A stretch of DNA of 64,000 bases from contig NZ_JAQFVG010000358.1 of NCBI RefSeq assembly GCF_029439455.1, forward strand, positions 1 through 64,000, in the 5' to 3' direction. A program made the translations under genes and the position numbers. The notes under the pieces were generated by a model. It saw only the letters and a program-made list of their open reading frames with translations, was not told the origin of the DNA and ran no database searches. Shown here piece after piece: positions 7,302 to 48,182 of this stretch. The DNA is from Caballeronia sp. BR00000012568055. Lineage in GTDB: Bacteria; Pseudomonadota; Gammaproteobacteria; Burkholderiales; Burkholderiaceae. Each line of letters opens with the position of its first letter. Position 1 is the first letter of the stretch.

Positions 7302-7400
7302 AGGTGCGACATATCGCGCCACCCGCATCTGCGCCGTTCGCGCAAGCGGGATAATGTCGCAAGGCACGCCCACGGGGCGGCACGACACGCACTCGACTCC

Positions 7401-8696
7401 ATGCACCGCATCACCAGTTCCGCACGCGTCAACCTCGGCCATTTGTTCTGGCTGCGCTCGTTCGCGATCATCGGTCAGTTATCGACCATTGCGATCGTGC
7501 AGATTTTTTATGGCGCGAAACTTCCGCTGCCCGCCATGCTGCTGGTGATCTTGCTGGAAATGATGTTCAACGGGCTCACGTGGCTGCGCGTGGCGCGCGG
7601 CCGTCCCGAGACCAACCTCGAATTGTTCGGCCAGATGTGGGTCGATCTGGGCGCGCTGTCGGCGCTTCTGTTTCTGTCGGGCGGCGCGACCAATCCGTTC
7701 GTCACGCTCTACATTCCGTCGCTTGCCATCGCCGCCGCCGTTTTACCCTGGTCGATGATGATCTGCCTCGCGGTTTTCGCGGTCGCGTGCTATGCGCTGC
7801 TGAGCTACAACTACGTGCCGCTCAACATCGAAAATCCGGCGAATCTGTTCGATTATTTCCGCACCGGCCTGTGGGTCAACTTTATGGTCAGCGTGGGGCT
7901 GATCGGCTGGTTCGTCGCGCGAATGTCGCGTGGCCTGCGCCTGCGCGACGCCGCGCTCGCCGACGCCCAGCAACGCCATTTGCGCGACGAACGCGCGGTC
8001 GCGCTCGGCGTGCAGGCGGCAACCGTCGCGCACGAAATGGGCACGCCGCTGTCCACCATCGCGATGCTGTCCGAAGAATTGCGCGATTCCGCCGCGCACG
8101 ACCGCAACCTCGCGCCCTACGCGGCGGATTTCGAGTTGCTCGAACAACAAATGGCGCTGTGCACGTCGGCGCTGGCGCGTCTGCGCAGCCGCGCGACCGG
8201 CCCGTCCACGCGGCAGGCGCTCGACGAATGGCTCGCCAGTTTTATCGATCAATGGCGGCTGCGGCATCCGCAAGTGAAATTCGAGCAGAGCGAGGACACG
8301 CCGCCCGACGTCGCAATCGACGATCCGGTCGCGGTCGGCCAGATTCTGACCATTTTGCTCGATAACGCCGCGCGCGCCAGCAGCGAGTCGGTGAGCCTGC
8401 GGGTATCGACGGAAATGTTCGAGCGCGTCAGCACCGTGCGATTCGACATCTGCGATCGCGGGGCGGGCATTCCGCCCGCGCTGCGCGCATCGCTGGGTGC
8501 GTCGCCGGTGGACAGCACGCAGGGCGGCCACGGCGTCGGGCTTTATCTGGCGTTTGCATCGGCGGCGCGGCTGGGTGGATCGATCGAACTGGTCGCGGGC
8601 GAACCGCGCGGCACGCGTGCCGTGCTGCGTTTGCCGAATCGCGCGAAAAGCACACCGCCGGTACAACCGGCAAATATTGAACGAAGCGGCGCGTGA
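7401..8696 (+). CDS. regB: Redox-sensing histidine kinase, RegB/PrrB/ActS type
   Basis: The product has 431 residues with about six membrane segments in the first 170. The loop between transmembrane segments 3 and 4 carries GGATNPF, matching the GGxxNPF quinone-sensing motif of RegB. The H-box is HEMGTPLSTI with His211. A cysteine at residue 254 (QMALCTSAL) falls where the redox-active Cys265 of Rhodobacter RegB lies. The ATPase domain ends with GGHGVGLYLAF. It should phosphorylate the adjacent RegA-type regulator according to the redox state of the quinone pool. Its stop lies just upstream of that regulator. Confidence 0.9.
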   Translation: MHRITSSARVNLGHLFWLRSFAIIGQLSTIAIVQIFYGAKLPLPAMLLVILLEMMFNGLTWLRVARGRPETNLELFGQMWVDLGALSALLFLSGGATNPFVTLYIPSLAIAAAVLPWSMMICLAVFAVACYALLSYNYVPLNIENPANLFDYFRTGLWVNFMVSVGLIGWFVARMSRGLRLRDAALADAQQRHLRDERAVALGVQAATVAHEMGTPLSTIAMLSEELRDSAAHDRNLAPYAADFELLEQQMALCTSALARLRSRATGPSTRQALDEWLASFIDQWRLRHPQVKFEQSEDTPPDVAIDDPVAVGQILTILLDNAARASSESVSLRVSTEMFERVSTVRFDICDRGAGIPPALRASLGASPVDSTQGGHGVGLYLAFASAARLGGSIELVAGEPRGTRAVLRLPNRAKSTPPVQPANIERSGA

Positions 8697-8728
8697 GCGC
8701 GCTTTCAAGGAACACGGAGAAAAGCAGC

Positions 8729-9271
8729 ATGAGCGATATGAACTTCCTGATCATCGACGACGATGAAGTCTTTTCGGGCATTCTCGCGCGCGGCCTGACG
8801 CGGCGCGGCTACACCCCGCACGTCGCGCATGACGGAAACGAGGCCATCCGTCTCGCCAATCAGCACAAATTCGACTGCATCACCGTCGATCTTCATCTCG
8901 GACAAGACTCCGGCCTGCGTCTGGTCGCGCCGCTGCGCGATCTGCAACCGGACGCGCGCGTGCTGGTGCTGACCGGCTACGCGAGTATCGCCACGGCGGT
9001 GCAGGCAGTGAAGGACGGCGCGGACAACTATCTGGCGAAACCGGCGAACGTGGAGTCGATTCTCGCCGCGCTGCACGAGCAGGCAAGCGAACAGACGGCG
9101 GAAGAGGCGATCGAAAATCCGGCGTTGCTGTCGGTGGCGCGGCTCGAATGGGAGCATATCCAGCGCGCGCTGGCGGAGAACAACGGCAATATTTCAGCGA
9201 CGGCGCGCGCGCTGAATATGCACCGGCGGACGTTGCAGCGGAAGCTGGCGAAGAAGCCGGTTCGGCAATAA
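8729..9271 (+). CDS. regA: Response regulator, RegA/PrrA/ActR type
   Basis: The product has 180 residues: a receiver domain (acidic pocket IIDDDE, phosphoacceptor Asp in CITVDLHLG, Lys in LAKPANV) and a C-terminal Fis-type helix-turn-helix (GNISATARALNMHRRTLQRK). This is the complete RegA architecture. The start at 8729 follows GGAGA by about eight bases. A start 36 bp earlier would overlap regB but lacks family support. RegA regulators control respiration, cytochrome oxidase and redox-balancing genes. Confidence 0.9.
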   Translation: MSDMNFLIIDDDEVFSGILARGLTRRGYTPHVAHDGNEAIRLANQHKFDCITVDLHLGQDSGLRLVAPLRDLQPDARVLVLTGYASIATAVQAVKDGADNYLAKPANVESILAALHEQASEQTAEEAIENPALLSVARLEWEHIQRALAENNGNISATARALNMHRRTLQRKLAKKPVRQ

Positions 9272-9324
9272 AGCAGGGAAAGATTGTGCTGGCTCGAATA
9301 AGAACGCATTAAAGCGCCAGCACA

Positions 9325-9440
9325 AAAAAAGAACCGCCCAAGCCGGGGAACCAGGGCGGTAATCGGAGAGTTGCAACGACTATGTGCATATACATGGGGA
9401 TACGCACAGGGACAGCATACGTTGCCTGATCGCACCCCCA
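9325..9440 (-). ncRNA. Candidate minus-strand small RNA ending in an intrinsic terminator
   Basis: On the minus strand ACCGCCC (9360-9354) and GGGCGGT (9339-9333) form a 7-bp stem with a 14-base loop. TCTTTTTTT follows at once (9332-9324). No minus-strand gene precedes this terminator: the region back to 9664 has no convincing reading frame. The simplest explanation is a short noncoding transcript starting somewhere near 9430-9450. The 5' end given here is a guess. A second hairpin, TTGTGCTGGC/GCCAGCACAA (9284-9293 with 9316-9325), lies just beyond. Confidence 0.45.
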
Positions 9441-9450
9441 TATACGACTA

Positions 9451-9466
9451 TTCCTAATATTAGGAA
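9451..9466. promoter_or_regulatory. Perfect 16-bp palindrome, candidate operator
   Basis: TTCCTAATATTAGGAA is a perfect inverted repeat with no spacer. It lies in the 393-bp gap between regA and the chemoreceptor gene, about 200 bp upstream of the chemoreceptor and next to the presumed 5' end of the minus-strand RNA. It is strongly AT-rich against the 62% GC background. The protein that binds it is not known to me. Confidence 0.5.
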
Positions 9467-9664
9467 GTCTCTTAATTGATTGCTAATTGTCAGCAAAACG
9501 GTCAGTAAGTCGGAGATAAGCGATCCGACATGGCTTGCGCGATATCTCCCATATCTACGCTCAAGAATGCCCGGCCAAGCGCCGTAAAGCCTGACGGTAC
9601 GTGAACGTGCGTTCGCGGCTGGCCGAGCGCGGACGCCGTCCGTGGGGCAAGTGAGGAGAGATCG

Positions 9665-11224
9665 ATGAAATGGTTTGACCGCCTGCCGGTGATCGGCAAG
9701 CTGCTGGTGTCCTTTGCCGTCGTGATTGTGATTACCGCGTGCGTGGGTGGCATGGGTGTGCTGTCGCTGGCGAAAATGAACGGGCTGATCGCGGAGATCG
9801 GGGATCGCCATCTGGACGGGGTGTACTGGGTCGAAGAGGTCAACAAGAACAAGCTGAACACGGACCTCGCCGCCGCGAATCTGACTTTCGCCGATGCAGC
9901 CGGCAAGTCCAAGCTCCTGTCCGATATGTCCGCGTCGCTCGATGGCATGCACCGGGCGATCGACCAGTTGCGTCCGACGATCATCTCCACCGAAGGCCAG
10001 TCGCTCTACGACAACGCGGTGAAGGCGGTCGGCGGCTGGGAGGATATCGTTCAGATGCAGATGGGCACGAAGCCGATGCCGATCGACGTCGACCAAATGG
10101 GTTTGGTTTCGCGTGCGATTGCCGCGAGCGAAACCGCGCGCGCTGCGCTCGAACGGTTCGCCAATTTCACGCGTCAGAGTGCCACGGAAGCGCGCAATCA
10201 CGCCGCTGCCGAATACGCGACGATGCGCGTGGTCATGCTCTCGCTCGTGTTCGGCGCGATGGTCGCGGGCGCGCTGCTCGCCTGGCTGATCGGCCGACGT
10301 TTGTCTACGCAACTTGGCGGCGAGCCGTCGTACGCGGCGCATATTGCCGACCGCATCGCCCATGGCGATCTGACGGCGCGCGTCGCCACGCGCCCCGGCG
10401 ATGACACCAGCATGCTCGCGAGCCTCGGCAATATGAGCGCGAAGCTGGCGGATATCGTCGGCGGCATCCGTCATTCGAGCGATTCGATCCTGAACGCGTC
10501 GCGCGAAATCGCGCAGGGCAACGTGGATCTGTCGCAGCGCACGGAGGAGCAGGCGGCGTCGCTGGAAGAAACGGCGTCGAGCATGGAGCAACTGACGGCA
10601 ACGGTGCGCCAGAACGCGCACCATGCCGATGAAGCCAGCGGTCTGGCTCGCGGCGCGTCGGATGTATCGGCGCGGGGCAGCGAACTGGTGAGCGAAGTGG
10701 CCGACAATATGCGCGAGCTGGCGGCGGGTTCGAAGCGCATGACGGACATCATTGCGGTGATCGAAGGAATTGCGTTTCAGACGAACATTCTCGCGCTCAA
10801 CGCGGCGGTCGAAGCGGCGCGCGCGGGCGAGGAAGGACGCGGTTTCGCGGTCGTAGCGGGCGAAGTGCGGGCGCTGGCGCAGCGCAGCGCGACGTCGGCG
10901 AAAGAGATTAAGGAACTGATCGAAGCGTCTACGGCGCGCGTCGGCAGCGGCGCGGCGCTTGCCGAACGCGCCGGATCGACCATGCTCGAAGTCACGCAGG
11001 CCGTGCAGCGCGTCACGGACATCATGGGACAGATTTCGACGGCATCGCACGAGCAGAGCACGGGCATCGAGCAGGTAAATCAGGCGGTCGCGCAGATGGA
11101 TCAGGTGACGCAGCAGAACGCGGCGCTGGTCGAGCAGGCGGCAGCGGCGGCCGGCGCGATGGCCGATCAGGCGGAGCAATTGAAAAGCGCCGTTGCGGTG
11201 TTCGAACTGGCGCAGACGGCGTAA
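9665..11224 (+). CDS. Methyl-accepting chemotaxis protein
   Basis: The product has 519 residues. The first membrane helix lies near residues 11-32 and is followed by a periplasmic four-helix-bundle-type sensor (about 33-190). The second helix lies near 190-212, then a HAMP region and a long cytoplasmic coiled coil. The signalling tip is present ([20 protein letters not shown], then [12 protein letters not shown]). The C-terminus lacks a CheR/CheB-tethering pentapeptide. The ligand cannot be predicted. GAGGAGAG lies five bases before the ATG. No other chemotaxis genes lie nearby, so it is an orphan receptor. Confidence 0.93.
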
Positions 11225-11286
11225 TTTCTGATCGCTTGCCACCCCGCATCGCACTCCGTAAACTCGCGCAAATTTCCAGAAACACG

Positions 11287-11320
11287 CGCGCCGCTTTTCG
11301 ATACCTCGATGAGCGGCGCG
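11287..11320 (+). other. 9-bp hairpin in the uraA leader
   Basis: CGCGCCGCT (11287-11295) pairs perfectly with AGCGGCGCG (11312-11320). It ends 21 bases before the uraA ATG and has no T-run after it. It could terminate the chemoreceptor transcript or be part of a uraA leader; the sequence alone does not decide. Confidence 0.4.
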
Positions 11321-11341
11321 TCCACGCCGAGGAGTGCGCTC

Positions 11342-12763
11342 ATGTCCGATTCATTTTTCCCGCGCTGGCCCGTCCAGCCGGATGCTTCCGGCGGCCGCGT
11401 CGTCGCGCCTGACGAGCGCCTGCCGTGGCCGCAGATGATCGCGATGGGCGTGCAGCACGTCGTCGCGATGTTCGGCTCCACCGTGCTCGCGCCGCTCCTG
11501 ATGGGCTTCGATCCCAATCTGTGCATCTTTATGTCGGGGATCGGCACGTTGCTGTTTTTCGTGCTGGTCGGCGGGCGCGTGCCGAGTTATCTCGGATCGA
11601 GCTTTGCGTTTATCGGATTGGTGATCGCGGTGACCGGTTACGCCGGACACGGTCCGAATATGAACATTCCTGTCGCGCTGGGCGGCATCATTGCGTGCGG
11701 CGTGGCGTATCTGCTGATCGGGCTGATCGTTGCGGCGGCCGGCACGAAGTGGATCGAAACGCTGATGCCGCCGGTCGTGACCGGCGCGATTGTCTGCGTG
11801 ATCGGGCTGAATCTTGCGCCTATCGCCGTAAAAGGCGTGATGGGCAGCAATTTCGATTCGTGGATGGCGCTGGTCACGGTGCTCTCCGTCGGCGCGGTGG
11901 CGGTGTTCGCGCGCGGCATGGCGCAGCGGCTGCTGATTCTGATCGGCCTGGCGATCGCCTACGTGATTTACGCGGTGCTGACCAATGGCATGAGCATGGG
12001 CAAGCCGATCGATTTTGCGATCGTCGCGAATGCCGCGTGGTTCGGCATGCCGCATTTCACCGCGCCGGTTTTCCAGGCTCCCGCGATGGCGCTGCTCGCG
12101 CCCGTCGCGATCATTCTCGTCGCGGAAAACCTCGGCCATATCAAAGCGGTCGGCGCAATGACGGGCAAGAGCCTCGACAAGTACATCGGCCGCGCCTTTA
12201 TCGGCGATGGCATCGCCACCGTCGTATCGGGCTTTGCGGGCGGCACGGGCGTGACCACGTACGCGGAAAACATCGGCGTGATGGCCGTCACCAAGATTTA
12301 TTCGACGCTCGTGTTCGTGATCGCCGCGCTGTTTGCCATCGTGCTCGGTTTCTCGCCGAAGTTCGGCGCGCTGATCCAGACCATTCCAGGGCCGGTTTTG
12401 GGCGGTGTATCGATCGTCGTGTTCGGGTTGATCGCGGTGACGGGCGCGCGTATCTGGGTCGTCAATAAAGTGGACTTCTCGGATAACCGCAATCTGATTG
12501 TCGCGGCTGTGACGCTGGTGCTTGGCACCGGTGACTTCACGCTGAAGCTCGGCGGTTTTGCGCTCGGCGGCATCGGAACCGCTACGTTCGGCGCGCGTTC
12601 TTTTTTCTCTGCGGTTCCGGTCCGCGCGGTTCTCCCGCTGACGTGCCCCCCCCCATTTCCCGATCCATTTTTAGGAATTTCCGTGTGTCGCGCGTATGGC
12701 GTGCTCGCTACATTTAGCGCGCGGGCTTGCAGTGCCATACCTTGGTTCGAATCAATTGCTTAG
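11342..12763 (+). CDS. uraA: Uracil/xanthine permease (NCS2 family) with atypical C-terminus
   Basis: The product has 473 residues. About 14 hydrophobic segments and the NCS2 signatures are present: QHVVAMFGSTVLAPLL at the start, and the motif region LVAENLGHIKAVG with its substrate-binding Glu near the middle. It imports uracil or a related base with protons. The recognisable family sequence stops at about residue 419 (GTATFGA). The last 54 residues are unlike a permease, with three cysteines and sequence translated from a C9 tract. The end of the gene therefore appears replaced or frameshifted. The start at 11342 follows GAGGAG; an ATG 33 bp upstream is less likely. Confidence 0.82.
   Translation: MSDSFFPRWPVQPDASGGRVVAPDERLPWPQMIAMGVQHVVAMFGSTVLAPLLMGFDPNLCIFMSGIGTLLFFVLVGGRVPSYLGSSFAFIGLVIAVTGYAGHGPNMNIPVALGGIIACGVAYLLIGLIVAAAGTKWIETLMPPVVTGAIVCVIGLNLAPIAVKGVMGSNFDSWMALVTVLSVGAVAVFARGMAQRLLILIGLAIAYVIYAVLTNGMSMGKPIDFAIVANAAWFGMPHFTAPVFQAPAMALLAPVAIILVAENLGHIKAVGAMTGKSLDKYIGRAFIGDGIATVVSGFAGGTGVTTYAENIGVMAVTKIYSTLVFVIAALFAIVLGFSPKFGALIQTIPGPVLGGVSIVVFGLIAVTGARIWVVNKVDFSDNRNLIVAAVTLVLGTGDFTLKLGGFALGGIGTATFGARSFFSAVPVRAVLPLTCPPPFPDPFLGISVCRAYGVLATFSARACSAIPWFESIA
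12646..12654 (+). repeat. Homopolymeric C9 tract inside the uraA tail
   Basis: Nine consecutive C residues lie in the atypical 3' end of the uraA frame, about 205 bp upstream of the adhesin start. Such tracts slip during replication. A length change here would alter only the non-conserved tail of the permease frame. Confidence 0.7.
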
Positions 12764-12776
12764 GATGGCAAATCAA

Positions 12777-12808
12777 AGCTGCCAGTCAACAATTTTGCAT
12801 TGGCAGCT
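12777..12808 (+). other. 8-bp hairpin between uraA and the adhesin
   Basis: AGCTGCCA (12777-12784) and TGGCAGCT (12801-12808) pair perfectly around a 16-base AT-rich loop. There is no T-run. It may end uraA transcription or lie in the adhesin leader. Confidence 0.4.
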
Positions 12809-12859
12809 AAAGCTCGAATTCAACTGATATCAACTATGGATCGTGGGCAAGGAAGCAAG

Positions 12860-14650
12860 ATGAAAACGGAAGTTGCAGGAATGCAGCAGCAATCGGCTGC
12901 TGGTGGGCAAATATCGAAAAGACGCGCGTCTCTGAAGATATGGATGACGGGCATTGTGGCTTGCCTGGGAATGACGAGCGGTCTGCAAGCGAACGCTCAG
13001 ACGCTCGGTTTCGGCTCGCATGCGGATAACGTGGTGGGCGGCCAGCCAGGATCGGGCGTTGCAATCGGATTTATGGCGAACGGTGATTCGACGTCGAAGG
13101 GCGGCTCGTCGCCGGTTGCGATCGGCTCGAAGTCGAACGCGAGCGGCGCGGGCTCGCAAGTCGCCGTGGGCGACCATGCCACCGCGACCGGCATGAATTC
13201 GATCGCCATCGGCGGTCACACGTATCGCGACGGCGCCACCGCGACCGGCGATTACGCGATCACGATGGGCGCGGAGTCCGTGGCCAGCGGCACCGGCGCG
13301 CTCGCGTTCGGCGGCGACGCGTCGAAGGGCGCGGTCGCCGCTGGAAATTACGCGGTGGCTTTCGGCGCGCAGGCATTGGCGTCGGGGACGAATGCATTGG
13401 CGCTCGGCAAGGGCGCGCAGGCCGGTAACGACGGCGACGTGGCGCTTGGCGCGGGTAGCATCACGCAGGCGGCAGTCGGAACGTCGTCGGTGACGATCAA
13501 TAGCGCGACTTACGGCTTCGCCGGAACGACGCCGATCAGCACGGTGAGCATCGGCAGCGCGGGCAGTGAGCGCACGCTGACGAACGTCGCGGCGGGTCGT
13601 ATCGATTCAACCAGCACGGACGCCGTGAACGGTTCGCAACTGAACGCCTTCAACGAGGCGATGGCGCGCGCGGACGCGAAGGTGAACGCGCTCGGCTCAA
13701 GCGTGGCCAACGCGTTCGGCGGCGGCGCGGCCTTCGATCCATCGACCGGTTTGATTGGCGCGCCCGCCTTCACGGTGTATGGCCAGGCGAACGCGGATGT
13801 CGCCAGCGCGATCGCCGCGTTGCAGAGCGGCGCGCCCGTGCAGTACTCGACGGCCGCTGCGCCGACCACCGGCCTCGGCCCGAACGGCGCGCCGCAGAGC
13901 AACGACGTGACGCTGGTCGGTCCGGATGCGACATCGCCGGTCGCGCTGCACAACGTCGCTGCGGGCGTCGCCGCCACCGATGCCGTGAACGTCGCGCAAC
14001 TCAACGAAGTGGTGAACGCGGCGGTCATCAACATCGGGCCGACCGGTGATCAATGGGTCGCGAGCAATCCTGCGACGGTCACCGCGCCGTCCGCCACCGG
14101 AACCGATGCGCTCGCCGCAGGCAGCAGCAGCGTTGCATCGGGCAAGGCATCGACGGCGATTGGCACGGGCGCGGTCGCAAGCGCCGACAATTCCGTTGCG
14201 CTCGGCGCGAATTCCGTTGCGGATCAGGCGAATACGGTGTCGGTCGGGTCGGCGGGCAACGAGCGGCGCGTGACCAACGTCGCCGCGGGCACGGCCGGCA
14301 CGGACGCCGTCAACGTGAATCAGTTGAACACGGGGCTCGGCAATCTGCAGAACCAGATGAACGCGAACGTGGCGAATCTTCAGGATCAGATTTCATCGAA
14401 CCTGAAGAAGTCGTACGGCGGCACGGCTGCGGCCATCGCGATTGCCGGATTGCGTTACGACGATCGTCCCGGCAAGGTTTCAGCGGCTGCGGCAGTGGGC
14501 TACTACCACAGCCAGATGGGCCTTGCGGCGGGCGTCGGCGGTACTTCGGATGACGGTCGCTGGCGCGTCAACGGCGGCCTCACGGTCACACCGACGTTGT
14601 CATCGCCGGATGTGGGCGCGGTGGTCGGCGTATCGCATACGTTCAACTAG
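12860..14650 (+). CDS. Trimeric autotransporter adhesin (YadA-like)
   Basis: The product has 596 residues. A long signal peptide ends near QANAQ. It is followed by YadA/Hep_Hag head repeats of the form (A)xAxGxxAxAxGxxS between residues 60 and 220. Two neck/stalk motifs of the type (R)xxTNVAAGxxxTDAVN precede the C-terminal membrane anchor (LKKSYGGTAAAIAIAGL onward). The anchor forms a 12-stranded beta-barrel from three chains and exports the passenger to the cell surface. The start at 12860 follows AAGGAAG; earlier in-frame ATGs at 12836 and 12800 are less well supported. Its stop overlaps the stop of the converging antiporter gene by 8 bp. Confidence 0.93.
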   Translation: MKTEVAGMQQQSAAGGQISKRRASLKIWMTGIVACLGMTSGLQANAQTLGFGSHADNVVGGQPGSGVAIGFMANGDSTSKGGSSPVAIGSKSNASGAGSQVAVGDHATATGMNSIAIGGHTYRDGATATGDYAITMGAESVASGTGALAFGGDASKGAVAAGNYAVAFGAQALASGTNALALGKGAQAGNDGDVALGAGSITQAAVGTSSVTINSATYGFAGTTPISTVSIGSAGSERTLTNVAAGRIDSTSTDAVNGSQLNAFNEAMARADAKVNALGSSVANAFGGGAAFDPSTGLIGAPAFTVYGQANADVASAIAALQSGAPVQYSTAAAPTTGLGPNGAPQSNDVTLVGPDATSPVALHNVAAGVAATDAVNVAQLNEVVNAAVINIGPTGDQWVASNPATVTAPSATGTDALAAGSSSVASGKASTAIGTGAVASADNSVALGANSVADQANTVSVGSAGNERRVTNVAAGTAGTDAVNVNQLNTGLGNLQNQMNANVANLQDQISSNLKKSYGGTAAAIAIAGLRYDDRPGKVSAAAAVGYYHSQMGLAAGVGGTSDDGRWRVNGGLTVTPTLSSPDVGAVVGVSHTFN

Positions 14651-36855: not shown

Positions 36856-37779
36856 TCAGACGCAGGCCGCCGCGCCACTCTGCCGTTTGGCCAACAGCGC
36901 CCGGCCAACGCGTGACGCGCTCGGCTTGCCGATCGCGCGCGAAATGAAATCGCCGATATCCACGAGCTGATCGAGATCCACGCCGGTCTCGATGCCTAAG
37001 CCGTTCAGCAGATACACGACATCTTCTGTCGCCACATTTCCGGTCGCGCCTTTCGCGTACGGACAGCCGCCCAAACCCGCCACCGACGCGTGATAAATCT
37101 CGATGCCTTCCAGCAGCGCCGCATAAATATTGCCGACGGCCTGACCGTAGGTATCGTGGAAATGGCCGGACAGACGTTCGCGCGGAAACACCTTCGATGC
37201 CGCCGCCATCACTTCGCGCGTGCGCTTCGGCGTGCCGACGCCGATGGTGTCCGCGATATCGATTTCATCGCAGCCGAGCGCCTTCATGCGTTCGACCACA
37301 TCGACCACGGAATCGATGCTCACTTCGCCCTGATACGGACAGCCGAGCGCGCAGGAAATGCTGCCGCGCACGCGCAGGCCCGCGTCTTTCGCGGCCTTCG
37401 CCACCGGCTCGAATCGCGCGATGCTCTCCGCGATGCTGCAATTGATGTTCTTCTGCGAGAACGCCTCGCTCGCCGCGCCGAAGATCACGATTTCATCGGC
37501 TTTGGCTTCGAGCGCGCCTTCGAAGCCGCGCATATTCGGCGTCAGCACGGAGTAGATCGTGCCCGCACGCCGTTCGATACCGCTCATCACCGCCGCGCCA
37601 TCGGCCATTTGCGGCACCCATTTCGGCGACACGAACGAGGTTGCTTCGACGTTGCGCACGCCCGCGCGCGCGAGCCGATTCACCAGTTCGATCTTCGTCT
37701 CGGTGGATACGAACTCTTTCTCGTTCTGCAAGCCGTCACGCGGCCCGACTTCGACGATTTTCACTTTCGTGGGGATCAT
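36856..37779 (-). CDS. mvaB: Hydroxymethylglutaryl-CoA lyase
   Basis: The product has 307 residues. It cleaves HMG-CoA to acetoacetate and acetyl-CoA, the last step of leucine degradation. The HMGL-like barrel begins VEVGPRDGLQNE (catalytic Arg-Asp). The metal ligands lie in SGHFHDTYGQ, and the active-site cysteine in GGCPYAKGATGN. The start at 37779 follows GGAGGAG. It is the first gene of a four-gene operon, separate from the rest of a leucine pathway, whose likely regulator lies near 62500. Confidence 0.94.
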   Translation of the reverse strand: MIPTKVKIVEVGPRDGLQNEKEFVSTETKIELVNRLARAGVRNVEATSFVSPKWVPQMADGAAVMSGIERRAGTIYSVLTPNMRGFEGALEAKADEIVIFGAASEAFSQKNINCSIAESIARFEPVAKAAKDAGLRVRGSISCALGCPYQGEVSIDSVVDVVERMKALGCDEIDIADTIGVGTPKRTREVMAAASKVFPRERLSGHFHDTYGQAVGNIYAALLEGIEIYHASVAGLGGCPYAKGATGNVATEDVVYLLNGLGIETGVDLDQLVDIGDFISRAIGKPSASRVGRALLAKRQSGAAACV

Positions 37780-37979
37780 GGGTTTGTCTCCTCCGTTGCA
37801 TTGCAAACCATCGCATTTTGCTATCGATTCCCAAAAGCTGCCAACCGCGGAATGTCTTGGCTGGTGAAAAAGACCGCCTGTTTGAATCATTTTTCGCGCC
37901 GCGAATTCGGAAAACTTCGAGCGGATTCAGTGACCCGAGACCCTATGATGAATTCGCAAGCGAGGGTCGGGACACGGAT

Positions 37980-38007
37980 GGGTTGGCCCGAATGGGGTTG
38001 GCCCGAA
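37980..38007 (+). repeat. Tandem direct repeat upstream of the peptide synthetase
   Basis: GGGTTGGCCCGAA occurs at 37980-37992 and 37995-38007, a 15-bp period. The second copy ends 50 bases before the synthetase ATG. It may be a regulator site, or simply coding sequence if translation starts further upstream. Confidence 0.5.
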
Positions 38008-38019
38008 AGTCGGCCGAAA

Positions 38020-38050
38020 CCTCGCTTCGACTCCCGAACGACAAGCGAGG
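38020..38050 (+). promoter_or_regulatory. Hairpin occluding the ribosome binding site of the peptide synthetase
   Basis: CCTCGCTT (38020-38027) pairs perfectly with AAGCGAGG (38043-38050) around a 15-base loop. The right arm contains the Shine-Dalgarno-like GAGG, seven bases before the ATG at 38058. If formed in the mRNA it would limit translation. Confidence 0.5.
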
Positions 38051-38057
38051 CTATCTC

Positions 38058-41000
38058 ATGAAGTTCGATGTCCTTACTCTTGCACGCACGCAGGCACGCG
38101 CATCCCAAGCCGCGTCACAATCTCCCAACCTGCGTGCCGTCTTCCGCCTGCCCGGAGTGCCCGATAAGGCGCGTCTGGCGCGCGCAGTCGCCAGCGTCGC
38201 CGATCGTTGCAAGCCGCTGCGCTGGCATGTCATTCACGGTGAAGACGGACCGCGTTATTTGCTGCACGACGCGGCGCTGGCGCAACTCGACGTCATCGAC
38301 ATCATCGACGCCGATGAAGCCCATTACGCCGATGAAGCCTCGCTCTCGTGCGCCATTACATCGCTGTGTGAGCGTCCGCTGCGTCTGGACGCGGGCGCGC
38401 CGTGGGCCATCACCTTGCTTTGTAGCGATGGCGCGAGTTACCTCGTCTTCGCCTGCCACGCCGGTCTGCTCGACCGCTTCTCGCTCACGCCGCTCTTCGC
38501 CGCGCTCTCTCAAGCCTACGCCGGCACAGGCGAATCTCCGTGCGATGAACTCGGTCTCGATCAGCAAGCCGTGCTGGACGCCGAGCGCGCCTCGCTCGAA
38601 CCGGAACAATGGCGCGGCGATCTGGCGTTCTGGGTGCGCGAATTGGGTGACGGCGCGTTCGCGTGGCAGCCGCCGCGTCTCGAAGGCGAGTCCGCCGACG
38701 CGCGATTCAGCGTGCCGCTCGGCGCGGCGCTCAGTCGCGAGCTGCGCATACGGGCCGAAGAACTTGGCCTGAGCACCGAATTTCTATTGCAGGCGTGTCT
38801 GCACGTGCTGCTGCAAACACTCGCGCGTCAGCCGGTGGTGATTACGGCACATCATCAGCGCGGACGGCGCGATACGCTCGGACAGATCGGCTTCGACGAG
38901 CGCGTGCACTTTATCCGCAGCAATTTCGACGATGCGATGACGCTGCGGCAATTTTTCTTGCACGCCGCGTCCAAATTCGCGATGGCTGACTTCCACGCGA
39001 ACATTCCGGCCGGCGATGTCCTGGAAGAACTGAAGCGTCTGAATCCGGGCTACGACCGCGCGACCACCGTGCTGTGCGAGCGCGATGAACTTCCGCACGA
39101 CGCGCTCGTGCTCGGCGATCTGCGCGGCGTGTTGGTCACGCATTTCTCTGAGCGTGCCGACGGGCGCGACACATCGATTTATCTGCGCATGGCGGACGAG
39201 ATCGTGCTGGACGTGAGCGTGCGTCATCCGCAAAGCGCGCGCGGGCTGGCCATTGCGCTCGAGCATTACGTAGCGCTGCTTGGCAGAATCGGCGAGCAAC
39301 TCGACACGCCGATCGGCCAACTCGATTTCGATACCGACGCACTCAGTGCGCGACGCCGCGCGTGGTCCACGGGCGGGCCGCTCGTGATCGAACCACACGA
39401 TGTGCTGGCGAGCTTCGACGAACGCGTGCGGCACCATCCCGACGCGCCCGCCGTCGGCGGCGACGACGAGCACTTTTCATACGCCGGGCTGGCGCGCGCG
39501 GCGGCGCGTATCGCGGAGGGCATTGCGCCCCATGTTGCGCAGAGTCAGCTTGTCGGCGTGTGTCTGTCGCGTGGCGCGCGCGTGGTGCCCGCCATGCTCG
39601 GCGTGTTGAGCGCGCGCGCCGGCTACGTGCCGCTCGACCCGCTGATGCCCGAAGAGCGTTTGCGCTTCATGGCCGCCGATGCGCAACTGAGCGCCGTCAT
39701 CGCTGATGCGGACACACTCGCGCGCGTGCAGACCACGTTCGCTTGCGCGATCGTTTTGATCGAAGATCTGCTCGCGCAGTCCTCCACAGACTTGCCGACG
39801 CTTTGCCGTGCCGCCGATCCGGCGCTTGCCGCCTACGTGATTTACACCTCGGGCACGACCGGCGAGCCGAAGGGCGTCGTGATCGAACGCGGCATGTTGG
39901 CGAATACGATCGCGTCGCTGGAAGGGCGCTATGAGCGCGGCATGGACACGCGCTGGCTGCAGTTTGCATCGGTCAATTTCGATGCGAGTGTGCTGGAGAT
40001 CTTCAATCCGCTGACCAGGGGCGGCCATCTGATCGTCGCGCCCGAGACAGTGCGCGCCGATCCGGCCGCATTGTTCGAATTCCTGCGCGAATCGCGCGTG
40101 ACGCACGCGTTTCTTCCGCCTGCCGTGCTGCGTCTGCTGCCGCGCCGCCCGTTGCCCGATCTGCGCACGATCCTGTGCGGCGGCGAAGCGAGTGACGACG
40201 ACACCGTGCGGTTCTGGTCATCGGTCGTGCGGCTGTCGAACATCTACGGCCCGACCGAAATCACCATCATGTGCGCCGAAAACACCTTTCACGATCAAAA
40301 GCTCGCCAATCAGATCGGGCGTCCTTTGCCGGGTTACGCCATTCATTTGCTCGATGCCAACGGCCGCGCCGTGCCGCTCGGGGGTATCGGCGAAATATGT
40401 ATTGGCGGGGCTTCCGTGGCGCGTGGCTATTTGCGGCGGCCGGAACTTACCGCGCAGAAGTTCTTCGACGATCCGCAGGGCGCAGGCCGCTTGTATCGTT
40501 CGGGCGATCTCGCGCGCTTTCTGCCGACCGGCGATATCGAATTTCTCGGGCGCAGCGACTTTCAGGTGAAGGTGCGGGGGTATCGCGTCGAAATTGGCGA
40601 GGTCGAGCAGGTGATCGCGGCGCAGCCCGAAGTGAGCGCCGTGTGTATCGGTACGCGCGCGCAGCAGGGCAGCACTGCGCTGGTCGCGTGGTATTCGGCA
40701 AGCGCGCTCGGCCCGGCGGCGTTGCGCCGGCGGCTGGAAACGCGCCTGCCCTCGTACATGATTCCGGCCATTCTCGTACCCGTCGATACCTGGCCGCTGA
40801 CATTGAACGGCAAGATCGACCGTGCGCGTTTGCCGGAGCCGCTGGCGACGGCGTCCCATGCCGAAGCGCGCGACTTCGATGCGCTCGAACGCACGGTTCA
40901 GGCATGTTGGGCAAAAACGCTTGGCATGCCGAAAGAGTTGATCGACGAACACACTCACTTTTTCGATGCAGGCGGTCATTCCTTGCTGGCGACGCTTGCC

Positions 41001-44000
41001 TGTGCGCGCATCGGCGCGGCGCTCGGGTGTGGCGCGAAACCCGGCATGCTGCTCGCGCATCCATCGTTCGATGCGTTTTGCCGCGTGTTGCGCGACAGCA
41101 TGCAGCAGGACGACGCGCTGCCGCCGATCGAATGTGGCGAACACGACGCGGCGGGCGTGGCGGTGACGAGCGCGATTGCGCAGGCGATCGGGCATCGTGT
41201 GCGCTTCAATCGCGAGGACAACGCCTACAACATTGTCGTGCGCGCCGACTTCAGCCGCGAGGTCAATCCGCTCGATCTGCACGCGGCGCTCACACGCGTT
41301 TTCGCACGCGATCCGCTCTTCAAATCCCGGCTCGTCGATGTCGATGGTGAAATGCATCTCGTGCTTTTGAATGCGGAAGCCGCGTGCATTCCCGCGTGTA
41401 TTCCGATCGAAACGGCGACGCAAGACGCCATCCGCGCGCAGGCCGAAGCCTGGATTCAGACGCCGATTTCCCCGGAAGACGTACCGTGCTGGCGCGCCGA
41501 GATGTTGCTCGACACGGAAAGCCGCGCCAGCACCTTGCTGTTCTGCATTCACCACGCAATGTTCGACGGTTGGTCGCTCAAGCTGCTGATGGACGAAATC
41601 GCTGCCGAATACGAAGGTCGAGCGGCGGAATCGCGCACGCTGAACTGGTTCGATTACTGTGCGTGGAAGCGGCGAATCGAGCCGTCGCCGCAGTATGCGC
41701 GCGCGCTCGACTACTGGAAACGCAAGCTCGCCAATGTGCCGCTGCGCCTCGACTTGCCGTTCGATTCGACCACGCGCAAGCCCGACTCCAATCGCGTATT
41801 GCGCGTCAGTCTCACGTTGGATCAGACCGCGCGATTGCGCGCGATCGCGCAGGCGCAGGGCACGACGCTTTCGCCAGTGCTATTCGCTCTGCATCTGCTG
41901 TGGTTGTGGCGAGTCAGCGGAAACGACGCGCCGGTTACCGGCTATCCGCAAGCCGGCCGCGATCAGCCTGGCAGCGAAACGATCTACGGCATGCTCGTGT
42001 CGATGGCGGTGCTAACCACGCGCATCGATCCGCGCCAACGCTTCGGCGAACTGGTGGCGGCCGTTCATCGGCAAATGCTCGAAGACCGGGATCACATGCT
42101 GGCCACCGCGTACGAAGCGGGCGTGGCGGATATCGGGACGCTCAATACGCTGTTCAGCCTGCAAAGCGGAATCGATCTGAGCGGGCGGATTGGCGCGGGC
42201 CGCTTTACGGTCGAAGACATGCCGTCGAAGACATCGAAGGCCGATATCGCGGCGATCTTCTACGCGAGTCAGAACGGCGCGATCGATGGACGCATCGAAT
42301 ATGACGGATCGCTGATCGCGGAGCACTCGGCGCGGTCCATGCGCGATGTGCTGACGACGCTGATCGACAGCGCTTCGCGCATGCCGGACACGCTGGTCGG
42401 CGAACTGCCGTATCTGAACGATGCGCAGCGGGCGCTCGTCACGCGTTTCTCGCGCGGCACGCCGATCTCCGATGCGCCGGCTTCGATTCCCGCGCGCTTT
42501 GCCGAGATTGCGGCGCGATTCGGATCGACGGATGCGGTGCGCTTCGAAGGCCGGACGCTGAGCTACGCCACGCTCGATGCGCTGAGCAGCCGGATTGCGA
42601 GCGGTTTGACGCAGTGGGTTTCGGCGGACGCGTGCGTGGGACTCGCGATGTCGAAAGGGCCGATGCTCGTCGCGGCGATTCTCGGCGTGCTCAAGGCCGG
42701 CTGCGCCTATGTGCCGCTCGATCCATCCTATCCCGCCGAGCGGCTTCGGCACTTCGCGGAGAACTGCGCGTTGACGGCGGGTATCGCAGATGCGCGAGGC
42801 CGTGCTGGTCTGACTGCGGCTGGCCTCACGCATCTGCAATTCGTCGATGCAGACGAACTCGCGCAAGCCGCGCCGCGCGCGCTCCACGAAGTCTCGCCGG
42901 ATGCGCTCGCGTATGTCATCCACACGTCGGGATCGACCGGCAAACCGAAGGGCGTGCTGATCGAACATCACAGCGTCGTGCGCATGATCGCGGGCGCGGC
43001 GGGACCGCTGAACTATGAGCCGGGTTGCGTGAACCTGCTGCTTGCATCGATCAATTTCGATGCGAGCGTGCTCGAGATTTTCCTTGCGCTGCTAAACGGC
43101 GGCACGCTCGTGATCGCGCCGGAAGACGCGCGACGCGATTCCGAAACGCTGCATCGGCTGCTGGAAAGCGCGCGCGTGACACACGCGATTCTCACGCCCG
43201 TGCTGCTGCAAGGTCTGCCCAAAGTCGTGTCGCCCGACTTGCGCGTGCTCGCGTTCGGTGGCGACGCGCTCGATGAAACCACCGCGCGCTGGTGGTCGCG
43301 CCATACGCGCCTGCTTTCGCTGTACGGACCCACCGAAGCCACGGTGATGGCGACGAGCGGGCAGATCGAGCCGGACGGTCCGGTGCGCGTGCTCGGCAAG
43401 CCGCTGCCCGGCTACGACGTCTATCTGCTCGATACGGACGGCCGCGTCACGCCGCCCGGTTCCGTGGGCGAGTTGTGTATCGGCGGGGAGAATCTGGCGC
43501 GCGGCTATCGCAACGAGGCGACGCTGACGCTGCGCCGCTTCATCGACGATCCTTTCGCCGGCAAGCCCTATGCGCGGATGTATCGGACCGGCGATCTGGG
43601 GCGTTATCTGGCGGACGGAACGATCGAATATCTCGGCCGTAACGATGCGCAGGTCAAGCTGCGCGGATACCGCATCGAACTCGGCGAGATCGAAAATCAG
43701 CTCGCGGGCATGCCCGGCGTGCAGCTCGCGGCCTGCGCGATTCGTGGCGAAGGCGAGCAGCGCTATATCGCCGCGTACTACGTACGGCAACACGGCGCGC
43801 CGGTGAACGAGGCGGCCATGCGCGAACACATCGCCGCCACGTTGCCGGACTACATGGCGCCGGCGCGTTACGTGGAGCTCGATGCGCTGCCGTTGTCCGG
43901 TTCGGGCAAGATCGACCGCAACGCCTTGCCTGTGCCTCCGGTGACATCGGCGGGGGAAGCGCCGCGCGAAGGGCTGGAAACAGCGATTGCGCGCGTTTGG

Positions 44001-45386
44001 TGTGCGCTGCTGCATGTCGATTGCGTGAGCCGCGAGGATCACTTCTTCCACCTCGGCGGCAACTCCATTCTGGCGATGCGGATGCACGCGCAGGTCCGCG
44101 CCGAAACCGGTTTCGACTTCCCGATGGCCGCGTTCTATCGTGCGCCGACCATCGCTGCGCTGATGGCGGGCGTCGCGCGTGACGATATCGCTTGCGCGGT
44201 CGCGGATGCTTCGGCAGCGCTGCCGCGCATGGACGTCGTTCCGGCGTGGCGCGGAGACGGCGCGAACCCGGTGCGCAAGATCGTGTTGACGGGCGCAAGC
44301 GGTTTCATCGGCATTCATTTGCTGTATGAGTTATGCCGCCGCGTGGAGACGGTGTTCTGCCTTCAGCGTTGCGACGATCCCGCCTCGGGACGGGCGCGTC
44401 TGCTGGGCGAAGCACGGGCCGCCGGTCTCACGATCGACTTCTCACGCGTGCAGGTGATATGCGCCGATCTCGCCCGTCCCGCGCTCGGACTCGCCGATGC
44501 CGACTGGCAGCGCCTCGCGCAAGAGGCCGACGCGATTCTGCATTGCGGGGCGCATGTGCATCATCTGCACGGGTACGCGAGTCTGAAGGACGCGAATGTC
44601 GGCAGTACCGAAGCGTTGCTGCGGCTCGCGCTCTCGGTGCGCCGGAAGCCGCTGTGCTTCGTATCGACCTTGTCCGTGCCGATGATGCTCGACGGTGTAT
44701 CGCGTGTAGAGGAGCGAATCGGCAATGAGCGTCCGCTGTCGGACAACGGTTATTTGCTCGGCAAATGGGTCAGCGAGCAGCGCGTGGCGGCGTACAGCCG
44801 CGCATTCGACTTGCCGGTCACGGTCATGCGCGTGGGCAATGTCACCGGAAACAGCCGTACGGGTTACAGCAACTATGCGCACAACCATTTCTGGCTGTTT
44901 AATCAGGGATGTTTGCAGATGGAGGCTTATCCCTTGACCGGGCAGGCTATCGAGATGACGCCGGTCGATGTGCTCGCCTCCGCGATGTGCGCGCTGGCGC
45001 TGCATCCGCGCGATGGCTTGCAGGTCGCCAATCTGCAGAATCCGGTCAGCATCGGGCAGCGCGAATGGTTCGAGTCGCTCGCGGCGCTCGGATTGCACGC
45101 ACAGCCCGAAGCGCCCGCGCAATGGAAGCAGCGTCTGACGACGATCGATTCTTCCAACGGGCTCGCGCTGCTGCGTGACTTCTATACGGGTGATCTCACA
45201 TCGCACGATATGCCGGTCGATCAGATCGGCACGATCAGTCGGCTTGCGCAGTTCGATGTGGGTATTGCGGAGAGTTACGGCGCGTTGATCGAGACGTATG
45301 TGCGGTATCTGCGTGAGGAAGGCTTCTTTCCGGCCGCAATGGGTAACGTGGGTGACATGGGTGACATGGCAGTGGCGCTTTCATAA
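38058..45386 (+). CDS. Nonribosomal peptide synthetase, C-A-T-C-A-T-reductase
   Basis: The product has 2442 residues. C1 (about 1-430) has a degenerate motif Cys-His134-AGLL-Asp139-Arg. A1 (445-930) has YTSGTTGEPKG and YGPTEIT. T1 carries its phosphopantetheine Ser975 in DAGGHSLL. C2 (1030-1460) has intact HHAMFDG at 1165. A2 (1475-1960) has HTSGSTGKPKG. T2 has Ser2003 in LGGNSIL. A terminal thioester reductase (2070-2430) has the NAD(P)H motif GASGFIG (2079-2085) and catalytic Tyr2232/Lys2236. My reading of the ten-residue pocket codes is DALFLGIIMK (A1) and DALIAGLVMK (A2), suggesting hydrophobic residues. There is no thioesterase; reductive release predicts an aldehyde or alcohol. An upstream in-frame ATG near 37992 is possible. 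The gene stands alone. Confidence 0.93.
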   Translation: MKFDVLTLARTQARASQAASQSPNLRAVFRLPGVPDKARLARAVASVADRCKPLRWHVIHGEDGPRYLLHDAALAQLDVIDIIDADEAHYADEASLSCAITSLCERPLRLDAGAPWAITLLCSDGASYLVFACHAGLLDRFSLTPLFAALSQAYAGTGESPCDELGLDQQAVLDAERASLEPEQWRGDLAFWVRELGDGAFAWQPPRLEGESADARFSVPLGAALSRELRIRAEELGLSTEFLLQACLHVLLQTLARQPVVITAHHQRGRRDTLGQIGFDERVHFIRSNFDDAMTLRQFFLHAASKFAMADFHANIPAGDVLEELKRLNPGYDRATTVLCERDELPHDALVLGDLRGVLVTHFSERADGRDTSIYLRMADEIVLDVSVRHPQSARGLAIALEHYVALLGRIGEQLDTPIGQLDFDTDALSARRRAWSTGGPLVIEPHDVLASFDERVRHHPDAPAVGGDDEHFSYAGLARAAARIAEGIAPHVAQSQLVGVCLSRGARVVPAMLGVLSARAGYVPLDPLMPEERLRFMAADAQLSAVIADADTLARVQTTFACAIVLIEDLLAQSSTDLPTLCRAADPALAAYVIYTSGTTGEPKGVVIERGMLANTIASLEGRYERGMDTRWLQFASVNFDASVLEIFNPLTRGGHLIVAPETVRADPAALFEFLRESRVTHAFLPPAVLRLLPRRPLPDLRTILCGGEASDDDTVRFWSSVVRLSNIYGPTEITIMCAENTFHDQKLANQIGRPLPGYAIHLLDANGRAVPLGGIGEICIGGASVARGYLRRPELTAQKFFDDPQGAGRLYRSGDLARFLPTGDIEFLGRSDFQVKVRGYRVEIGEVEQVIAAQPEVSAVCIGTRAQQGSTALVAWYSASALGPAALRRRLETRLPSYMIPAILVPVDTWPLTLNGKIDRARLPEPLATASHAEARDFDALERTVQACWAKTLGMPKELIDEHTHFFDAGGHSLLATLACARIGAALGCGAKPGMLLAHPSFDAFCRVLRDSMQQDDALPPIECGEHDAAGVAVTSAIAQAIGHRVRFNREDNAYNIVVRADFSREVNPLDLHAALTRVFARDPLFKSRLVDVDGEMHLVLLNAEAACIPACIPIETATQDAIRAQAEAWIQTPISPEDVPCWRAEMLLDTESRASTLLFCIHHAMFDGWSLKLLMDEIAAEYEGRAAESRTLNWFDYCAWKRRIEPSPQYARALDYWKRKLANVPLRLDLPFDSTTRKPDSNRVLRVSLTLDQTARLRAIAQAQGTTLSPVLFALHLLWLWRVSGNDAPVTGYPQAGRDQPGSETIYGMLVSMAVLTTRIDPRQRFGELVAAVHRQMLEDRDHMLATAYEAGVADIGTLNTLFSLQSGIDLSGRIGAGRFTVEDMPSKTSKADIAAIFYASQNGAIDGRIEYDGSLIAEHSARSMRDVLTTLIDSASRMPDTLVGELPYLNDAQRALVTRFSRGTPISDAPASIPARFAEIAARFGSTDAVRFEGRTLSYATLDALSSRIASGLTQWVSADACVGLAMSKGPMLVAAILGVLKAGCAYVPLDPSYPAERLRHFAENCALTAGIADARGRAGLTAAGLTHLQFVDADELAQAAPRALHEVSPDALAYVIHTSGSTGKPKGVLIEHHSVVRMIAGAAGPLNYEPGCVNLLLASINFDASVLEIFLALLNGGTLVIAPEDARRDSETLHRLLESARVTHAILTPVLLQGLPKVVSPDLRVLAFGGDALDETTARWWSRHTRLLSLYGPTEATVMATSGQIEPDGPVRVLGKPLPGYDVYLLDTDGRVTPPGSVGELCIGGENLARGYRNEATLTLRRFIDDPFAGKPYARMYRTGDLGRYLADGTIEYLGRNDAQVKLRGYRIELGEIENQLAGMPGVQLAACAIRGEGEQRYIAAYYVRQHGAPVNEAAMREHIAATLPDYMAPARYVELDALPLSGSGKIDRNALPVPPVTSAGEAPREGLETAIARVWCALLHVDCVSREDHFFHLGGNSILAMRMHAQVRAETGFDFPMAAFYRAPTIAALMAGVARDDIACAVADASAALPRMDVVPAWRGDGANPVRKIVLTGASGFIGIHLLYELCRRVETVFCLQRCDDPASGRARLLGEARAAGLTIDFSRVQVICADLARPALGLADADWQRLAQEADAILHCGAHVHHLHGYASLKDANVGSTEALLRLALSVRRKPLCFVSTLSVPMMLDGVSRVEERIGNERPLSDNGYLLGKWVSEQRVAAYSRAFDLPVTVMRVGNVTGNSRTGYSNYAHNHFWLFNQGCLQMEAYPLTGQAIEMTPVDVLASAMCALALHPRDGLQVANLQNPVSIGQREWFESLAALGLHAQPEAPAQWKQRLTTIDSSNGLALLRDFYTGDLTSHDMPVDQIGTISRLAQFDVGIAESYGALIETYVRYLREEGFFPAAMGNVGDMGDMAVALS

Positions 45387-45398
45387 GCGTCGTCGGCG

Positions 45399-45421
45399 CG
45401 CGGCGGCGTAAAGCCGCCGCG
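45399..45421. terminator. GC-rich hairpin between converging genes
   Basis: A 9-bp stem, CGCGGCGGC/GCCGCCGCG, closes the loop GTAAA. It has no T-run, so termination would have to be weak or Rho-assisted. Confidence 0.4.
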
Positions 45422-45430
45422 TATCGATCT

Positions 45431-46562: not shown

Positions 46563-48182
46563 ATGCATAAAATCTCGATCGAACTGATCAAGCCATTCAT
46601 CGCTTTTTTAAAGAATGCCGTGACGGCGCATACGGAAGGACGCGTCGAAGCCGGCGAGACATGGCTGAATGCCGCCGCGCATTTGCATGCAACGGACGAC
46701 GACTCGCTGATCATGCTAGTGGAGGCGCTGGCCGCGCAGTCAGCCGTGCCGGACGCACTTGCTATCGCCGAATCCTGGCGGCAGCTCCGTCCGCGCTCGG
46801 TCGCCGCCGCATACTATCTGGGCTGCCTTTTCGATATGTCCGGCCGCCAGCGCGAGGCGCTTACGGCTTATCGGCATGCGTTGGCTTGCAGCCCGGACTA
46901 CCCCAATCTCAGAACCAATCTCGCATCGGCGATCCATCAGTCAGGCGGCGACTTGCGCGAAGCGATCGCCTTGCTCGAGGATGCCTGCAAGGCCGATCCG
47001 CAGGAAACGCTGGCATGGAGCAACCTTTGCATACTGCGCTTCAAAACCTTCGATCTCGATGGCGCGTTGATCGCCGGAAAGCGCGCGGTCGAACTGGCGC
47101 CTCACCATGCCGCCAGCTTGTATGCCTATGCGCTTGTCCTGGCGGAAGCGCGCCGCATTGACGAGGCCACGGCATACGCCGTCGCCGCGTGCAATCAGGC
47201 GCCGCACGACGCGTCCTATCGATTCCACCTGTCGATCCTTCGCCTGGCGCAGCGTGACTACGAACAAGGCTGGCCCGAGTTCGAATCAAGATGGCGCGGG
47301 GCACATATCTCGCACGGACAGTGGCCCGAATTTCCGCAGCCACGCTGGGAAGGACAGCCTCTGGACGGCAAGACACTTCTGCTGTGGGGCGAGCAAGGCA
47401 TGGGCGATGTGCTCCAGTTCTGTCGTCTGGTGCCAGCGCTGGCGCAGCGAGTGCACGAAGCGGGCGGGCGAATTGAATGGAACGCGTTCCCGCAGATGAG
47501 CGCTTTGCTCGCGCGTAGTCTGAGCCAGCATGTCGATGGTTTCACGATCGGAGGCGGACTCGACGACTTGCCGCATTACGACTATCACCTTCCTCTGCTC
47601 AGTATTCCGTTGGTAACAGGCCTGCGCGATGAAACCATCCCCGCCGCGCCCTATCTGTTTGCAGACGCCGCGCACTCGGCGTTCTGGAAACAGCGTCTGT
47701 CGCATGAAAGGCGATTCAAAGTCGGGCTGGTCTGGACCGGCAGCGCGACACATTCGCGAAATCCATTCAGACGAGTCGGCTGGGAGCGTTACGCGGAGTA
47801 TCTGAAGAACATGCCGGGCGTGGCTTTTTACTCGCTGCAAAAAGGCGCTGAAGCCGATGTGCGGTCAGCGCGCGCGGCCGGCCTGCATATGGAAGACTTC
47901 ACGCACGAACTGAACAGTTTCGACGATACCGCTGCGTTCGTCGGCGCACTCGATCTCGTGATTACTGTCTGCACGTCGATTGCGCATCTGGGCGGAGCGC
48001 TGGGTTGCCCGACGTGGGTGCTGCTGGATGTGAATCCGTATTGGGTCTGGCAACTCGACCGTGCTGATACTCCGTGGTATTCGAGCGTCCGGTTGTATCG
48101 TCAGCCGCAATTCGCGGACTGGAACTCCGTGATGCAAGACGTTGCGGCCGATTTGTTGCGCCTGACCGACTCGCATCGATAA
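46563..48182 (+). CDS. TPR protein with glycosyltransferase-9-like C-terminal domain
   Basis: The product has 539 residues. Residues 20-240 form about six tetratricopeptide repeats (for example AAYYLGCLFDMSGRQREAL and AWSNLCILRFKTFDLDGA). Residues 270-535 resemble the heptosyltransferase/GT9-like domain (LLLWGEQGMGDVLQFCRLVP, then VGLVWTGSATHSRNPFR, then LVITVCTSIAHLGGALGCP). Such fusions are common in proteobacteria and may glycosylate proteins or build surface polysaccharide. The donor and acceptor are unknown. There is no clear Shine-Dalgarno. Confidence 0.8.
   Translation: MHKISIELIKPFIAFLKNAVTAHTEGRVEAGETWLNAAAHLHATDDDSLIMLVEALAAQSAVPDALAIAESWRQLRPRSVAAAYYLGCLFDMSGRQREALTAYRHALACSPDYPNLRTNLASAIHQSGGDLREAIALLEDACKADPQETLAWSNLCILRFKTFDLDGALIAGKRAVELAPHHAASLYAYALVLAEARRIDEATAYAVAACNQAPHDASYRFHLSILRLAQRDYEQGWPEFESRWRGAHISHGQWPEFPQPRWEGQPLDGKTLLLWGEQGMGDVLQFCRLVPALAQRVHEAGGRIEWNAFPQMSALLARSLSQHVDGFTIGGGLDDLPHYDYHLPLLSIPLVTGLRDETIPAAPYLFADAAHSAFWKQRLSHERRFKVGLVWTGSATHSRNPFRRVGWERYAEYLKNMPGVAFYSLQKGAEADVRSARAAGLHMEDFTHELNSFDDTAAFVGALDLVITVCTSIAHLGGALGCPTWVLLDVNPYWVWQLDRADTPWYSSVRLYRQPQFADWNSVMQDVAADLLRLTDSHR

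Follow-up and report, generated by a model that had tools for sequence, protein, structure and literature searches.

We analyzed a 64,000-nt stretch of Caballeronia sp. BR00000012568055 (contig NZ_JAQFVG010000358.1, positions 1 to 64,000; the window), which carries a lone gene for a two-module nonribosomal peptide synthetase (NRPS) with a terminal reductase. The first condensation-fold domain of this protein, C1, lacks the catalytic second His of the HHxxxDG motif, as it does in nearly every member of a family of similar synthetases. We give roughly even chances to a model in which the gene encodes a self-sufficient reductive dimodular NRPS that releases a dipeptide with a free amine, C1 forming no bond. 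A broader proposal, which we hold only tentatively, is that C1 is a family-specific non-catalytic condensation-fold domain, neither a starter nor an X domain by its motif and retained by selection for a gating or docking role, and that the one-gene pathway, having spread over several phyla with nearly constant pocket codes, yields a single conserved small molecule, either a signal or protease-directed.

The 2442-aa frame is fully open. Searches with Pfam and NCBIfam place the domains in the order C1-A1-T1-C2-A2-T2-R within a single protein (CATCATR), in agreement with the sequence-only reading, which had described a complete synthetase with a full reductase in one gene:

38058..45386, + strand: lone NRPS gene, 2442 aa
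38058..39362, + strand: C1, N-terminal condensation-fold domain by sequence (Pfam; hhalign to C2; alignment to the Txo1 and Txo2 chains)
39405..40862, + strand: A1 adenylation domain, code DALFLGIIMK
40863..41117, + strand: T1 carrier domain, S975
41190..42452, + strand: C2 condensation domain, HHAMFDG intact
42495..43937, + strand: A2, between C2 and T2
43950..44192, + strand: T2 carrier domain, S2003
44235..45332, + strand: R domain (thioester reductase), Y2232/K2236, FVSTLS at 2201-2206 (TIGR01746; solved relatives)

The active-site residues and the pocket codes reported from sequence alone, DALFLGIIMK and DALIAGLVMK, were reproduced. To define the family we took all proteins of 2360-2500 aa listed by two protein searches, each giving the best 120 proteins from about 8000 candidates scored; this yielded 79 members from the first search and 92 from both, so that family numbers are lower bounds. 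Relatives of other lengths, such as P0025 (1781 aa) and P0064 (1980 aa, P. elongata), were dropped. The carrier serines and the reductase Tyr and Lys are intact in all 92 listed members, as is the second His of C2, which in the window is a canonical HHxxxDG domain. The ATG start aligns with Met in six relatives; ATA stands at the same place in two Caballeronia genomes, G017 and G005. When the whole genome (363 contigs) was searched with the Condensation family, the only matches were the two C domains of this gene. The genome also holds two matches to PF01648, the phosphopantetheinyl transferase (PPTase) family; one of them lies in a 240-aa frame that includes an Sfp-like stretch, and we read it as Sfp-type.

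In C1, H134 aligns with the first His of HHxxxDG and A135 with the second; D139 is kept and the motif Gly is replaced by R140. The resulting motif, HAGLLDR, corresponds neither to the HHxxxDG of a canonical or starter C domain nor to the HRxxxDD of an X domain. Profiles of family C1 and family C2 align with an hhalign probability of 99.4%, and the C1 profile matches the solved C-domain chain Txo1 at 1.1e-14; alignment to Txo1 and to the Txo2 chain places the His as the C2 alignment does. The second His is absent from 91 of the 92 listed members, its column holding P in 68, S in 10, A in 7, T in 3, and E, G, R and H in one each. The first His is present in 77 and the Asp in all 92, both His are gone in 15, and the Gly position is occupied by Arg in 78 and Gln in 11. 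As a control, a hidden Markov model (HMM) of family C2 was run against the 75 non-family proteins in the lists that exceed 2500 aa. Among the C domains of these NRPSs, 36 of the 39 at the N terminus and 218 of the 219 elsewhere keep the second His, versus one of 89 family C1 domains scored by the same route (three of the 92 were not scored), a contrast tempered by the make-up of the control set, mostly longer assembly lines whose N-terminal C domains are not necessarily starters.

C1 is under purifying selection like its neighboring domains and is not drifting. Among the intact genes of the Caballeronia genomes G023, G024 and G017, the ratio of nonsynonymous to synonymous substitution rates (dN/dS) is 0.139, 0.175 and 0.158 for C1 in the three comparisons and 0.157-0.178 for the whole gene. 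Between the window and G023 the values are 0.189 for C1 and 0.199 for the whole gene, at a dS above 1 that is near saturation.

The adenylation pockets are largely constant in the listed members, with D-A-L-F-F-G-I-V-M-K the commonest residues in A1 and D-A-L-I-G-G-L-V-M-K in A2; position 299 varies, as does 278 in A2. Their composition suggests hydrophobic substrates, as the sequence-only reading had proposed. F278, L299 and G301 of A1 presumably resemble Leu and Ile codes, which we treat as a lead and not as a test; a literature look-up of the pocket codes, with incomplete search coverage, returned no residue assignment. Because the codes are nearly constant across phyla, one shared product class is predicted.

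These features can be combined into a pathway. An Sfp-type PPTase encoded elsewhere in the genome would prime T1 and T2, and A1 and A2 would each load a hydrophobic amino acid onto them. C1 would most likely form no bond, serving instead to support A1-T1 structurally or to provide a docking or gating surface, so that the amine would stay free. C2 would join the two residues and the NAD(P)H-dependent R domain would release the dipeptide. A free-amine dipeptide aldehyde would cyclize spontaneously to a (dihydro)pyrazinone; alternatively, a second reduction would give an amino alcohol. The product is most likely a free-amine hydrophobic dipeptide that leaves as an aldehyde, and then becomes a pyrazinone, or as an alcohol.

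Further observations weigh against this pathway, beginning with C1. Over long distances it is the least conserved domain: six deep members are 24.4% identical to the window in C1, as compared with 36.5% in C2. C domains without the second His can stay active, according to the accessible part of PMC11546977; loss of this residue need not abolish activity, and C1 might still condense. The same part of that paper describes an active HQxxxDM C domain. Together with the purifying selection on C1 and the retention of its first His and Asp in most or all listed members, these precedents favor a reading of C1 as a starter condensation domain that is active despite its unusual motif, the product then being an N-acyl dipeptide aldehyde or alcohol. 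We consider this unlikely: the second His is missing almost throughout the family and both His in 15 members, the motif Gly has given way to Arg in 78 and to Gln in 11, and no acyl-activating or acyltransferase family is listed among the neighboring genes scanned, which are part of all neighbors.

The other point concerns release. The nearest solved relatives of the R domain are those of MxaA (myxalamid; 163.7 bits) and of a polyketide synthase (PKS; 154.3 bits), with the AusA (aureusimine) reductase far behind at 42.7 bits. This nearness to the myxalamid enzyme favors an alcohol over an aldehyde or pyrazinone and gives that option more weight. The title of the paper on the myxalamid reductase reportedly speaks of primary alcohols. 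MxcG, moreover, ranks second among the NCBIfam scores for the whole protein (869.5 bits). Even so, we regard a double reduction by R, with a dipeptide alcohol as product in place of an aldehyde or pyrazinone, as rather doubtful, since how many hydride transfers take place cannot be read from sequence nearness and both kinds of reductase share a Ser/Thr-Tyr-Lys triad (PMC8949500, accessible part). Of the small dipeptide products first proposed for this gene, we keep the aldehyde, alcohol and pyrazinone, with more weight on the alcohol; the N-acylated form is weakened by the absence of the second His from C1 in 91 of 92 members.

The synthetase belongs to a distinct family of lone proteins of about 2.4 kaa with at least 92 members; a conserved lone C-A-T-C-A-T-R family was what the sequence-only reading had named as support for novelty. 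Among the matches listed, named hosts are Caballeronia, Paraburkholderia, Competibacteraceae, Thiorhodovibrio, Desulfobulbus, Desulfonatronovibrio, Riflebacteria and Planctomycetota, and no member is characterized: names, where given, are general NRPS or adenylation terms, with one automatic 'Linear gramicidin synthase sub...'. In a tree, the Riflebacteria, Thiorhodovibrio, Desulfobulbus, Desulfonatronovibrio and Competibacteraceae members are intermixed, as horizontal transfer would give, although several backbone nodes have low support. The distribution is patchy. In 398 genomes of the phylum (E <= 1e-200, at most two candidates scored per genome), the NRPS was found only in the window's own genome; one other match, with 33% identity over residues 407-2041, is a different NRPS. 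Three of 40 genomes from the order of a Competibacteraceae genome carry it, as do four of 78 from P. phenazinium and its relatives, both samples including the seed genomes. P0025, named as Pseudomonas sp. C9-3, starts within A1, spans query residues 645-2425 and shares 80.7% identity with member P0007; it has perhaps crossed between genera recently. Matches were also found in 201 plasmid records, one of which had a best place of 60-80% identity. Two plasmid matches were rejected as outside the family: H1 is part of a 13.8-kb NRPS gene, and H29 is a 2055-aa NRPS gene whose match starts at query residue 499.

How new the family is depends on the feature considered. Literature searches, with most subscription journals outside their coverage, brought up no account of this family with its altered C1 among the titles listed. 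The kind of synthetase is already known: in the accessible parts of the sources, CATCATR clusters of Bacillus are described as largely uncharacterized and likely horizontally transferred (PMC5686519), and C-A-T-C-A-T-R is called the typical pyrazinone architecture (PMC10979478). The architecture is thus not new, and any novelty would lie in the altered C1. The Bacillus NRPSs share with the window NRPS the domain order, an uncharacterized product, and likely horizontal transfer, as far as the accessible text goes; no Bacillus protein is named among the best 120 of either family search, in which many entries are nameless. Gut dipeptide aldehydes have been isolated as pyrazinone by-products (PMC12327764, accessible part). 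Their synthetases and ruminopeptin (cited in PMC12327764 and PMC10979478, again from accessible parts) offer NRPS-made dipeptide aldehydes for comparison, likened here by description only.

AusA (NF047350; PDB 4f6c) likewise has two modules and a reductase. It starts with an A domain, whereas the window NRPS starts with C1. The window protein is not AusA, scoring 811.4 bits against a cut-off of 2500 (42.7 bits in the R domain), nor the myxochelin synthetase MxcG (NF038078, 869.5 bits against a cut-off of 2300), whose product differs. MxaA, the best solved relative of the R domain, also differs in product. The X domain of glycopeptide NRPSs resembles C1 in having a C fold with an altered HHxxxDG, and X domains are described in the accessible parts of PMC8949500 and PMC11546977 as inactive C relatives used as platforms. 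However, the X motif given in the latter, HRxxxDD, differs from the H-A-xxx-D-R of C1, and X recruits P450s, whereas no candidate partner was found for C1. In Paraburkholderia, Msb3 has a two-protein NRPS with a thioester reductase protein (PMC7186400, accessible part), unlike the one-gene case of the window.

Since 7.3 kb of DNA in a single gene would hold the entire biosynthetic pathway, and named Caballeronia and Paraburkholderia have relatives of it, expression and testing should be easy. A first C domain that is conserved although its catalytic His is gone would give the C-domain superfamily one more role, and would be a caution that domain order by itself is no basis for predicting N-acylated products.

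The gene stands alone between hmgL and ghrA:

37780..45430, no strand: hmgL start codon to ghrA stop codon, holding the NRPS alone, 7651 bp
45400..45420, + strand: GC-rich hairpin, stem GCGGCGGC, loop GTAAA, 3' of the stop codon, no T tract (sequence)

The hmgL-ghrA interval is 25-47 bp in seven relatives (one starting with GTG) versus 7651 bp in the window. The two genes adjoin in G054, G012, G057 and G042, which lack the NRPS, and in G023, G024 and G017, which carry it elsewhere. No direct or inverted repeats of nine or more bases were found between the two insertion ends. A terminator scan found none, the hairpin notwithstanding, and by eye no common motif was obvious in the upstream regions of seven loci. 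A frame at 37090-38061 (+) overlaps the NRPS start, but it is antisense over the HMGL-like gene and so was not accepted as a companion.

The proposed absence of companion genes held up when more sites were compared. By tblastx of flanks up to 6 kb (no more than 1.4 kb downstream in C. peredens), 14 loci fall into nine sites with no partner gene common to all. Sites are shared by the window and G005, by C. pedi and G035, and by P. phenazinium (upstream side only) and G530, G512 and G510; six are singletons. The sole other flank match is a major facilitator superfamily (MFS) gene, which lies on the upstream side in the P. phenazinium group and on the downstream side in L009. The window shares no neighbor family with any of eight other loci, as judged by an automatic gene choice in which some genes, hmgL among them, were missed. 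Between the other loci five families recur, in differing places: an MFS transporter type is present in three loci, and each of the remaining four families in two. The neighbors scanned are ordinary genes of many kinds.

Within Caballeronia, 9 of 58 genomes contain a close relative, open in one frame in G000, G017, G023, G024 and G029 and broken in the other four (stops in G005 and G045, a rearrangement in G035, two frames in G013). These broken copies, and the lack of a sigma-70-like match upstream on the + strand, would fit a decaying or silent relic in the window genome. Such a relic is very improbable, the window copy being fully open with all active sites and the intact relatives having the low whole-gene dN/dS given above. 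Identity of four core genes is 94-96% among G023, G024 and G017, where the NRPS is 89-92% identical; between this group, G013 and the window it is 87-89%, with 68-72% for the NRPS. Since the two move together, we take the NRPS to be a long-standing gene of the genus that was later relocated. One order is reversed, the window being nearer to G013 by NRPS and to G023 by core, so the gene may also have been transferred within the genus.

The broken copies of G005 (4.2 Mb; L031) and G045 (3.8 Mb; L041, L042) lie next to hmgL or ghrA, as at the window site; in G045 ghrA is also broken. In L030 (G035; 7342-14245), a rearranged, broken copy, an A2 piece (query 1784-1862) is inverted between the NRPS halves. 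Between ghrA and bioB of the window, a gene for a 539-aa protein (46563-48182, +) has no Pfam match at 1e-10 and no tblastn match in the ghrA-bioB regions of eight relatives, which suggests that the NRPS has another accessory gene next to it. Farther away, 12800-14650 (+) encodes a YadA-like trimeric autotransporter with head, stalk and anchor domains.
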